A stretch of DNA of 64,000 nucleotides from positions 2,746,661 through 2,810,660 of the forward strand of contig NZ_CP016474.1 of NCBI RefSeq assembly GCF_001693255.1, given 5' to 3'. The notes beneath the pieces are model-generated. The model was not told the DNA's origin. It saw only the letters and a list, made by a program, of their open reading frames with translations, and did not search any database. Below are positions 1,247-60,990 of the stretch, in pieces. Made by a program: the position numbers and the translations under genes. How positions within the stretch are numbered: the first letter of the stretch is position 1; each line of letters begins with the position of its first letter. The stretch is from Picosynechococcus sp. PCC 7003 (lineage in GTDB: Bacteria > Cyanobacteriota > Cyanobacteriia > Cyanobacteriales > MRBY01).

Positions 1247-1252
1247 TTGAAC
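1247..1252 (+). other. Candidate insertion/TAM motif TTGAAC beside the short tnpB element
   Basis: TTGAAC directly precedes the left end of the 285-bp element. The same hexamer precedes the full-length element at 59456-59461. IS200/IS605 elements insert 3' of a fixed short motif and do not duplicate it, and the same motif serves as TAM for the element's TnpB. Two independent insertions after the same hexamer support this reading. Confidence 0.6.
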
Positions 1253-1300
1253 TTTAGCGCGGCAGTCCCTATCTCTCTTTAGGGTAGGGAAGGATAGCGC

Positions 1301-1325
1301 GGTGATGTAGCAAAGCGGAATCACC
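1301..1325 (+). repeat. Left-end hairpin 2 of short tnpB element (co-varying)
   Basis: GGTGAT and ATCACC enclose a 13-nt loop. The full element has GGCTACT/AGTAGCC at the same place with a loop also 13 nt long (both G.AG..AA.CGGA). Stem bases changed on both sides while pairing was kept, which points to selection on the folded strand. Confidence 0.65.
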
Positions 1326-1380
1326 AACCAGTGTGGAAATAATATGCTATAACAGTAGCCACATTGATCACTTAAAGAGA

Positions 1381-1521
1381 ATCAATGTAGCTCAGGTTAA
1401 TTTAGCCTGGGCAAGGGGTCAGGAACTGGCCTCTTTAGACGCAGAGCTGCCTAGCTCTACCAATTGCGGAAGCATGAGGCAACTAGGAGCGATGAAGCGT
1501 CGGAAACTCCATGCCTCTTAG
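1381..1521 (+). pseudogene. tnpB: tnpB 3' remnant
   Basis: An open frame ending RRKLHAS-stop reproduces the last 47 codons of the intact tnpB in this window, starting at INVAQVNLAWARGQEL (INAAQVNLAWARGQEL in the intact copy). The RuvC-I and RuvC-II segments and the zinc ribbon are missing, so it cannot encode a nuclease. Nucleotide differences are spread along the segment, so the copies have been separate for some time. The stop codon lies inside the right-end hairpin, as in the full copy. Confidence 0.85.
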
Positions 1522-1551
1522 GCTGGAGTAGTTCATTAGGATGTACTCACC

Positions 1552-2166
1552 TTACCAGCAGCCGAGGTAGTAAACATCTTCGTAATGTTCAGTGCAACCT
1601 TCGCCACCAATGTTATTCAAAATATTCATGCTGGTGTTGTGGAGCATCGAACTGACATAGGATTGCTGTTCGGCAGAAACCGCAACGCCGCCACTTGCCA
1701 TTAACTGCGCTTGGTATTGCTGGAGGTAGGCAATCAAAACATTCACCATCACCCCCGAATAAGGCCAAGGAGTAATCGCCGCTTCGATGGTATTTGGGTC
1801 AACGGCGATCGCCTGATTATTTTGCATTCTGTAGGTGGCAGTGGGTGTCAAGGCGTAGAGAATCTGTGGGTCATTATTTTGGCTCATTTGAGCGAAAAAA
1901 ACCGTCACCTGACTCGGCGAAAAATAGCTGATCCGCCCTTGGGCATCCAGATAAATTAAACCCTGATCATCGGAAAAAGGGCCAATAATCCCAGCATTGG
2001 GGGGTACAGGAGGAAAGCCAAGCTGTTGGGCCACAAAGACGGCATTAGCATCCCCTTGGAACTGGATTCCCGCCGGGTTTGCCTGGGCTGGCGCACAGAT
2101 CATTTGCCCCACAAGACAGCCAAAGCCCACACTGGCACTGAGGTAACGACGCAAAACCTGGAACAT
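1552..2166 (-). CDS. Exported protein of unknown function
   Basis: 204 residues starting MFQVLRRYLSASVGFGCL. A basic start, a hydrophobic stretch and an APAQANPAG cleavage-like region indicate a Sec signal peptide (about residues 1-29). The mature part is rich in Q, A and N, has segments such as YFSPSQVTVFFAQMSQ, and ends with two cysteines (GEGCTEHYEDVYYLGCW). I do not recognise a family. The stop codon is only 14 bp from the right end of the short tnpB element, so the guide region of that element would match the 3' end of this gene on the antisense strand. The preceding leader contains TAGGGAGAAAG as ribosome binding site. Confidence 0.65.
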   Translation of the reverse strand: MFQVLRRYLSASVGFGCLVGQMICAPAQANPAGIQFQGDANAVFVAQQLGFPPVPPNAGIIGPFSDDQGLIYLDAQGRISYFSPSQVTVFFAQMSQNNDPQILYALTPTATYRMQNNQAIAVDPNTIEAAITPWPYSGVMVNVLIAYLQQYQAQLMASGGVAVSAEQQSYVSSMLHNTSMNILNNIGGEGCTEHYEDVYYLGCW

Positions 2167-59283: not shown

Positions 59284-59461
59284 ATGACCATGGAGATTCA
59301 AACCAAGTCAATCATTAACAACTTGACCCAGGCGACAGTAACCTGTGAGGGCTTCTGGGAAAAGGCGATCGCCCCCAATCCAGATTTAGCCATTCAACGG
59401 GCAATGCAACGGCTTTTGGGACAACTCAACCAAGCCTTGGCCTTGGTGGATTATTTTGAAC
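59284..59461 (+). pseudogene. 5' part of a gene interrupted by the tnpB element
   Basis: 59 codons and one base: MTMEIQTKSIINNLTQATVT at the start and LNQALALVDYFE at the end, then the element begins. Joining base 59461 to 60970 gives codon CTG and keeps one frame through to 61445, making a 217-residue protein. The N-terminal part is helical with no family I know. In the present state translation would run into the element and stop after about ten foreign residues. Confidence 0.8.
59456..59461 (+). other. Insertion/TAM motif TTGAAC beside full tnpB element
   Basis: The hexamer lies immediately left of the element, as at the short copy. It is part of the interrupted coding sequence (TTT GAA C). 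Confidence 0.65.
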
Positions 59462-59509
59462 TTGGGCGCGGCAGTCCCTATCCCTCTTTAGGGTAGGGAA
59501 GGATAGCGC

Positions 59510-59536
59510 GGCTACTGAAGAGAAACGGAAGTAGCC
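59510..59536 (+). repeat. Left-end hairpin 2 of full tnpB element
   Basis: GGCTACT and AGTAGCC enclose a 13-nt loop. The stem sequence differs from that of the short copy but pairs equally well. It lies directly behind the stop of the ribbon-helix-helix gene and could also end its transcript. Confidence 0.65.
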
Positions 59537-59539
59537 AAA

Positions 59540-59677
59540 TCAATCAGGCTTAGGCAATCGCCTTATGTACTCTCTGATAATTTGAGCCATGCTGACATCC
59601 TTGTTGGACGCGAACGCCTTGAGTCTTGCCAGATCCTCTGATGTTAGCCTTATTTTTAGTACTTCTGACTTGTTCAT
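59540..59677 (-). CDS. Ribbon-helix-helix (CopG/Arc-type) protein inside the tnpB element
   Basis: 45 residues: MNKSEVLKIRLTSEDLARLK then AFASNKDVSMAQIIREYIRR. A short strand (EVLKIRLT) and two helices with the turn NKDVSMAQIIREYI match the RHH fold of CopG-like repressors. The start is 28 bp from the tnpB start on the other strand, with a 14-bp palindrome overlapping its own start codon. I infer a repressor of tnpB and of itself. It is absent from the 285-bp copy. Confidence 0.75.
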   Translation of the reverse strand: MNKSEVLKIRLTSEDLARLKAFASNKDVSMAQIIREYIRRLPKPD

Positions 59678-59699
59678 TGTGGGCACAATAGACTACAAT
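59670..59699 (+). promoter_or_regulatory. tnpB promoter with palindromic operator
   Basis: TTGTTC (59670-59675) and TACAAT (59694-59699) are spaced 18 bp, a plausible promoter. Between them lies the perfect palindrome ATTGTG-GG-CACAAT (59676-59689). Transcription would start near the tnpB ATG, so the mRNA may be leaderless. A ribbon-helix-helix dimer could bind here. Confidence 0.55.
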
Positions 59700-59705
59700 A
59701 GGAGC

Positions 59706-60953
59706 ATGGTAACACGCCGAATCACTTACAGGCTCTATCCAAGTCGCCAACAGCAAAAAAAGCTGCACTATTGGCGGCGCTTACATTGCAGTTTGTATAA
59801 CGCGGCAATAGCTAATCGCAAAACCCAGTACCAAAAGTTCAATCATTCCGTTGATTACTTTGAGCAGCAAAATAGTTTGCCGGAGTTCAAGCAAGTATGG
59901 CCAGAATTTAAAGAACTGGGTTCCCATGCCCTACAGGCAACGTTAAAGCGAGTGGACTTTGCCTTCAACCGATTTTTTAAGGGATTGGGGGGATATCCAA
60001 AGTTCAAGGCATCTCGGAGATATTCGGGGTGGACATATCCCTGCGGGGCAGGTTGGCAGGTAGAAACAGATGGTCAGCATGGCTTTCTCAAGTTGAGCCA
60101 CTTAGGCAGAATGCAAATGAGAGGGAAAGCTCGCACCTGGGGAAAACCAACAACTTGCACAATTTTCTTCCGCCAGGGCAAGTGGTATGCCTCAATCACC
60201 GTCAAATGTAAGCCGCAGCGGGAAGCTGACGGGGGATCTGTGGGGATTGATTTAGGTTGCAAGGAAGCGATTACCCTTTCTACAGGGGAGCAACTATCAA
60301 AGCCTAGCTTTATCAAAGTCGGTGAAGTTGCCGTAAAGCAAGCATCCAAGCAACTCAGACGAAAGCGTGCACCAAACCGAAATAAGCGAGTTAAAGCATC
60401 GCGGCGGTGGCAAAAAGCGAGACGGCAGGTATCAATGCGGCAACGCAAAATTACCCGTCAGCGCGAAGATTGGCTGCATCAAATCACAAGCGACATAGTC
60501 AGCGGTAATAGCCTGGTTGCAGGTGAGCAGTTAAACGTCAAAAACATGACCCGCAAAGCCAAAAAAGGCAGCAAACGGAAAGCTCAAAAAACAGGGCTTA
60601 ACCGCTCCATTCTCTCGGTTGGCTTCGGCATGATTGGTTCAATGCTGGAATACAAGCTGGCAGAGGCAGGAGGATTTTATGTGGAGTCCCCGACAAGGAC
60701 GCTTAAGCCCTCTCAGCGTTGCGCTAAATGTTGGGAGCTAACGCCAAAGACATTGGCAGACAGGGTACATATTTGCTCAAACCCAAACTGTGGCCACAGG
60801 GAGGATAGAGATATCAATGCAGCTCAGGTTAATTTAGCCTGGGCAAGGGGTCAGGAACTGGCCTCTTCAGTCGCGGAGCCGCCAAGCTCTACCGATTGCG
60901 GAAGCATGAGGCAACTTGGGGTGATGAAACGACGGAAACTCCATGCCTCTTAG
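59706..60953 (+). CDS. tnpB: TnpB, RNA-guided nuclease of IS200/IS605 element
   Basis: 415 residues from ATG 59706 (MVTRRITYRLYPSRQQQKKL); an earlier in-frame ATG would extend it with unrelated residues. RuvC-I Asp182 (GIDLGCKEAI), RuvC-II Glu274 (VAGEQLNVKNM), zinc-ribbon cysteines 339, 342, 357 and 362, and RuvC-III Asp369 (DRDINAAQVNLA) are all present, so it looks active. TnpB relatives cut DNA next to the TAM, guided by an RNA from the right end. The 3' end of the gene overlaps that expected RNA. Confidence 0.95.
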   Translation: MVTRRITYRLYPSRQQQKKLHYWRRLHCSLYNAAIANRKTQYQKFNHSVDYFEQQNSLPEFKQVWPEFKELGSHALQATLKRVDFAFNRFFKGLGGYPKFKASRRYSGWTYPCGAGWQVETDGQHGFLKLSHLGRMQMRGKARTWGKPTTCTIFFRQGKWYASITVKCKPQREADGGSVGIDLGCKEAITLSTGEQLSKPSFIKVGEVAVKQASKQLRRKRAPNRNKRVKASRRWQKARRQVSMRQRKITRQREDWLHQITSDIVSGNSLVAGEQLNVKNMTRKAKKGSKRKAQKTGLNRSILSVGFGMIGSMLEYKLAEAGGFYVESPTRTLKPSQRCAKCWELTPKTLADRVHICSNPNCGHREDRDINAAQVNLAWARGQELASSVAEPPSSTDCGSMRQLGVMKRRKLHAS

Positions 60954-60990
60954 GCTGGAGTAGTTCATTTGGTGCCAGAAAATCAATTGT
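60820..60990 (+). ncRNA. Predicted guide RNA (omega RNA) region of tnpB element
   Basis: In characterised elements the guide RNA spans the tnpB 3' end and right end, with its guide in the flank. Here that means scaffold up to 60969 and guide starting TGGTGCCAGAAAATCAA. This segment is also the part preserved in the 285-bp copy. The 5' boundary is a guess. Confidence 0.5.

Follow-up and report, generated by a model that had tools for sequence, protein, structure and literature searches.

A short nuclease-less element in a cyanobacterial genome retains a tnpB promoter-region remnant and a complete omega-RNA scaffold and may guide TnpB in trans

The window (the whole stretch of 64,000 nucleotides analysed here, C1:2746661-2810660 of a 3.35-Mb cyanobacterial genome) harbours a short element, S1, and a full-length tnpB copy, F1 (Table 1). 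Aligned without gaps, the two are identical at 53 of 56 positions of the left end and at 147 of 160 positions of the right end. This bears out the initial annotation, which had recognised a short copy of the tnpB element at 59.5-61.0 kb made of about 50 bp of its left and about 157 bp of its right end. Inside S1 we found neither tnpA nor the tnpB core. The TnpB copies of the genome carry the RuvC D-E-D motifs GIDLG, GEQLNV and DRDINAA, and the TnpB encoded at 59.7 kb, which also has a zinc finger, aligns to the TnpB chains 8h1j/8bf8 over residues 43-413. A gene for a small ribbon-helix-helix protein, found beside tnpB in all seven chromosomal tnpB copies, may encode an element-borne regulator of TnpB. 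The palindrome ATTGTG-GG-CACAAT lies between this gene and tnpB, and similar ribbon-helix-helix genes occur near tnpB in genomes G100 (L221) and G052 (L257).

Table 1. Features of S1 and F1 in window coordinates
Feature	Position	Strand	Remarks
Target site/presumed TAM TTGAA, left of S1	1247..1251	+	TGAA directly 5' of every copy
Short nuclease-less element S1	1252..1536	+	285 bp; ends set by 15 copies and PCC 7117 empty sites
Left-end hairpin 1 (GCGC...TCCCTA/TAGGGA...GCGC)	1258..1299	+	inverted repeat; long in S7 and A1
Left-end hairpin 2 (GGTGAT/ATCACC)	1301..1325	+	full copy differs (GGCTACT/AGTAGCC), pairing preserved
tnpB promoter/start-region remnant	1327..1379	+	similar to F1 around 59676-59735
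Last 46 codons of tnpB and stop, no longer a protein	1381..1521	+	frame broken in S3, S4, S6 and S7
omega-RNA scaffold	1390..1536	+	helices, terminal ACTCCA/TGGAGT hairpin, TTCAT end; covarying fold
Predicted guide	1537..1556	+	TAGGATGTACTCACCTTACC; flanking DNA; right flank begins after TTCAT in all copies
Full-length tnpB copy F1	59461..60968	+	1508 bp; TTGAA at 59456-59460
45-aa ribbon-helix-helix protein gene	59540..59677	-	divergent from tnpB; Pfam RHH_1
tnpB promoter/operator-like region	59676..59699	+	palindrome ATTGTG-GG-CACAAT (inverted repeat at about 59676-59689), TACAAT box
tnpB	59706..60953	+	likely start 59706; longer ORF from 59589; Pfam OrfB_IS605, Cas12f1-like_TNB
omega-RNA region of F1	60822..60968	+

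Alignment of joined flanks to PCC 7117, a relative of the same genus, places the start of the element at C1252 and its end at T1536. The C that follows TGAA is part of the element because the empty sites run from TGAA straight into the right flank, as seen at the unoccupied PCC 7117 sites for F2, F3, F4 and F6 (TGAA, or TCAA in the case of F2). For the S1 site itself, PCC 7117 has GGGCCGAACGCGATGTACTC where the joined flanks read GGGTTGAA followed by TAGGATGTACTC; the two are of equal length and differ by substitutions only. Insertion thus takes place 3' of a short fixed target, with no duplicated bases in the joined flanks at the PCC 7117 sites. The base preceding TGAA is mostly T and otherwise C or G when the flanks of all copies are compared. 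On the right, all copies end in GTAGTTCAT (GTAGTTCAC in S7), after which unrelated DNA follows. The element had been placed at 1253-1537, and while its existence stands, these coordinates lie one base too far to the right: T1537 is flanking DNA and had been matched only because a T happens to follow both copies in the window. The predicted guide is shifted likewise and reads TAGGATGTACTCACCTTACC from 1537, not AGGATG... as proposed earlier. The termini of S1, C... and ...TTCAT, are not inverted copies of each other, so that there are no terminal inverted repeats; instead, the element harbours subterminal palindromes that can form hairpins at 1258-1299, 1301-1325 and 1506-1529.

S1 is not a lone oddity. 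A genome search, which had been suggested for further short copies, returned seven (E = 4e-150 to 3e-108, values that exclude chance), all without nuclease, in agreement with the proposal of a non-autonomous element present in several copies. They are 94-100% identical to S1 and have identical ends at seven different sites; six of the seven are 285-293 bp long, and the left end of S7 is rearranged. None is reduced to its ends alone. The full right part with the guide-RNA segment is retained in all seven, and the opposite pattern, short copies without the 3' segment, was not seen. In addition, the chromosome harbours seven tnpB copies (six with an open frame and one broken), and the one full Y1_Tnp gene of the genome lies on contig C3, within an element with related ends that carries both tnpA and tnpB (copy A1). 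All 15 copies occupy different sites, several of which, including that of S1, are unoccupied in PCC 7117. Since the 15 flanks all differ, the short form itself has moved, and 15 distinct right flanks would amount to 15 guides. This bears on the idea that the short copies are dead remnants, tnpB copies that decayed at random in place. Some truncated copies do occur in other genomes, but seven near-uniform copies with identical ends at seven sites, together with the empty sites in PCC 7117, require mobilisation of the short form, and we consider this the least likely of the explanations.

The left ends of the short copies fall into two types. Hairpin 2 is formed by GGTGAT/ATCACC in S1-S4 and S7 and by GGCTACT/AGTAGCC in S5 and S6, whose left end is identical to that of F1 over 78 nt. 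A third version of this hairpin was found in genome G015, so the hairpin is preserved while its sequence varies. Individual copies show further differences. S7 and the tnpA-bearing A1 have a long left-end hairpin, one arm of which is swapped in the other copies for GCGCGGCAGTCCC; the exchanged arm is also seen in further genera (G084, G021). At the site of S7 (G000:C1:1818937-1819227, L143), 16 bp between two TTGAA sites are lacking relative to PCC 7117, as if both TTGAA sites had served insertion or excision. In S4 (G000:C1:138902-139193), 8 bp of left-end hairpin 1 are duplicated, and its loop is altered as a result. F3 (G000:C1:594719-596222) is full-length with a broken tnpB frame and intact ends and omega-RNA region; it is possibly an intermediate on the way to guide-only copies.

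The initial annotation had S1 consist of the two ends and nothing else. This does not hold, as about 75 bp lie between them, comprising the second left-end hairpin and a stretch of 53 nt (1327-1379). The latter resembles the F1 promoter, the operator-like palindrome and the first codons of tnpB, and none of 500 shuffles scored as well for S1, S5 or S7 (shuffle counts, here and below, are not probabilities). The promoter/operator-like region of F1 is thus homologous to the centre of the short copies, and a short match, AGAG, marks the deletion junction, where the tnpB start is fused to the last ~50 codons of the gene. The sequence TGC-TATAAC at 1345-1353, 14 nt before TCACTTAA, resembles an extended -10 box. 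In several short copies of G084, a similar -10-like box precedes the same TCACTTAA by 11-16 nt; owing to their close relationship, the Picosynechococcus copies cannot be taken as independent instances of the box. A scan of the short and the full copy with a generic sigma-70 consensus gave no promoter and no terminator, so the promoter call rests on homology and the weak -10-like motif. By its sequence, S1 looks like a promoter joined to a complete omega-RNA and flanked by transposon ends. A protein-coding tail (62-aa ORF, 1333-1521) was considered as well and rejected, since its frame is broken in four of the seven short copies (S3, S4, S6 and S7).

The right ~147 nt of S1 fold into two hairpins, a long branched stem and a terminal hairpin before TTCAT. 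Folded alone, segment 1360-1536 gave a z-score of -4.97, and the scaffold scored 180.9 bits in cmsearch; a search of the omega-RNA region against Rfam returned no family at E <= 1. The predicted guide region overlaps the 3' end of a minus-strand gene (1552-2166). In an alignment of 13 cyanobacterial sequences representing several genera, changes on both sides with pairing kept were seen at 12 of 45 pairs. This set has 29 two-sided cells compared with 8.8 after shuffling (0 of 500 shuffles), and structures slid along the alignment gave at most five. In the seven main helices 92.7-100% of the pairing cells hold, while the reading frame is broken in four of the seven short copies. Three pairs (columns 82-143, 91-131 and 95-128 of alignment A2) distinguish the short from the full copies of this genome by differences on both sides that leave pairing intact. 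These differences may predate the deletion; that at 82-143 may already have been present in the ancestor of the short lineage, given that its A-U form also occurs in distant relatives. Substitutions private to the short copies mostly keep the pairs and are too few for a test.

Furthermore, we ran the covariance model on 149 genomes of the order and obtained matches in 51, after which 60 loci were inspected for TnpB upstream. As expected, TnpB was found upstream of most matches. No TnpB similarity was found upstream at ten loci of G084 (one of them cut by a contig end), at L234 (G064), at L255 (G088) and, in G015, at L260 together with two loci that run into contig ends; L244, L258 and L259 are truncated by contig ends, and L223 (G066) was left out of the nuclease-less count because its upstream DNA is masked with N. 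G084, G015, G064 and G088 represent four families other than that of the window, bringing the total to five. The ten TnpB-less copies of G084 stand against one intact tnpB (L242, with RuvC motifs). Where measured, its short copies are 303-342 bp long; they follow TGAA, have a left end resembling GCGCGGCAGTCCC and in most cases terminate in GTAGTTCAT. To judge from these features, the design is the same as in Picosynechococcus. At least seven of them share a segment upstream of the RNA that is not derived from tnpB and therefore had a TnpB-less common ancestor. G015 harbours another guide-only family, often at contig ends (L153-L160; C65, C294, C248, C347, C76, C81, C135), in a different cyanobacterial family, and the only TnpB closely related to it (C123) is spread across two frames.

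Covariation persists among the copies that lack TnpB. We counted 21 two-sided cells in the ten G084 copies compared with 7.0 after shuffling (0 of 500), and 134 compared with 39.4 (0 of 500) in 23 TnpB-less copies from six genomes; alignments A4 and A5 were built on the covariance model and are thus biased towards its structure, and in A4 seven rows are close relatives and row L223 has masked upstream DNA. Two-sided changes affected four pairs, among them all three of the small internal hairpin, within the close G084 group that has a TnpB-less 5' region in common. Because helices covary among TnpB-less copies and some of the changes postdate the loss, selection appears to act on the RNA itself.

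These data have to be weighed against an ordinary PATE or MITE, that is, a deletion derivative mobilised by TnpA in trans that has kept the omega-RNA region only as, or near, the right end bound by TnpA and without a guide role. A Y1 TnpA is indeed present in the genome, and the retention of the right end could in part be due to the fact that transposition requires it in any case. There is also precedent in Halanaerobium hydrogeniformans: the accessible part of its description (PMC7290912) gives a PATE-like element of 271 nt that, like S1, has no tnpA and combines a left-end hairpin (28 nt of left end) with the last 58 nt of tnpB and the whole right end. It is a single copy, its description predates the discovery of omega-RNAs, and a promoter segment or selection on the RNA is not described in that part of the account. 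However, every copy studied here has kept ~145 nt in which several helices precede the terminal hairpin, and the promoter-derived segment is retained as well. Moreover, six of the seven covarying pairs in the ten G084 copies lie outside the terminal hairpin, so that the compensating changes in TnpB-less copies affect mostly internal helices. This speaks for selection that acted on the RNA once the nuclease had been lost, rather than for retention for TnpA alone, and we regard a purely TnpA-driven derivative as unlikely.

We conclude that S1 is probably a non-autonomous IS200/IS605 derivative, PATE-like or of the "ghost locus" kind, that provides TnpB in trans with a guide of its own. According to the current view, TnpB protects the transposon that encodes it. 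In the work on ISDra2, TnpA excises one strand at the target and leaves a donor joint consisting of the TAM and the right flank (PMC8612924), which TnpB with its omega-RNA was proposed to cut, so restoring the copy (PMC8612924). S1 would have been produced by internal deletion of a tnpB element. With both transposon ends kept, it could be excised and inserted by Y1 TnpA supplied in trans, and the deletion would have placed the tnpB promoter region directly upstream of the complete scaffold. As promoter region and scaffold are retained, every short copy would be expected to produce a guide of its own and to rely on TnpB provided in trans: a transcript reading through the right end into the flank would carry a site-specific guide and could load onto TnpB from the full-length copies. 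The complex would then cut the TTGAA-flanked empty site after excision, and repair from the sister chromosome would restore the short copy, which would in this way exploit both TnpA and TnpB. Promoter activity, mobilisation by TnpA, loading onto TnpB and cutting are the steps that we infer in this scheme.

The short RNA might instead be a regulatory decoy, a parasite or a brake that binds TnpB with a targetless guide and lowers its activity on the full copies. An occupied site does leave a guide without intact target, so additional guides would compete for TnpB, and RNA from the short copies could be more abundant than the others (seven such copies here, 10:1 in G084). The guides of the full copies are equally targetless, however, and a decoy would not need the insertion-specific guide and the TAM, both of which are kept; we therefore consider a decoy very improbable.

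A guide supplied in trans has parallels in known systems. In structure S1 matches a PATE, and by analogy its function can be likened to that of a ghost locus. The Fanzor ghost loci of Spizellomyces punctatus have, like S1, both ends and an omega-RNA without a nuclease gene, and like the S1 family they are present in multiple copies beside nuclease-bearing ones (PMC10432273); their omega-RNAs work with Fanzor supplied separately (PMC10432273). They are eukaryotic, with terminal inverted repeats and a length of ~550 nt, whereas S1 is a 285-bp element of a bacterial TnpB with Y1-type hairpin ends and a retained promoter region. The PATEs of Haloquadratum walsbyi resemble S1 as transposase-free IS605 core deletions with subterminal palindromes and no target duplication that are mobilised in trans; they are archaeal, and guide-RNA content is not described in the available part of that report (PMC3119063). 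The ~150-nt reRNA of ISDra2 arises, as predicted for S1, from the tnpB 3' end and the right end, with a guide of ~16 nt from the flank (PMC8612924). Its TAM equals the TnpA target TTGAT, compared with TTGAA here, and its RNA and nuclease come from the same element, whereas S1 lacks the nuclease gene in cis (PMC8612924). The novel aspects are the bacterial TnpB setting, the retention of the promoter region, the occurrence in five cyanobacterial families and the indication that selection has acted on the RNA since the nuclease was lost. A literature search on TnpB with MITEs yielded nothing relevant, and an earlier description of guide-only TnpB elements is possible. Altae-Tran 2021 reportedly may mention standalone omega-RNAs for IscB.

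More tentatively, guide-only TnpB elements might be widespread and stable in cyanobacteria, with a selected omega-RNA that goes on evolving under their own promoter after the nuclease has been lost, such that one or a few TnpB genes serve a genome-wide, dispersed, CRISPR-like set of guides; we hold this broader reading to be conceivable, at somewhat less than even chances. Should copies without a nuclease maintain a selected guide RNA, TnpB would be a shared good exploited by parasites, and dispersed guides served by one nuclease would, if true, resemble a step towards CRISPR. As natural promoter-plus-scaffold cassettes, the short copies would also offer a direct in vivo test of the TnpB retention model, in which they should be lost faster without tnpB.
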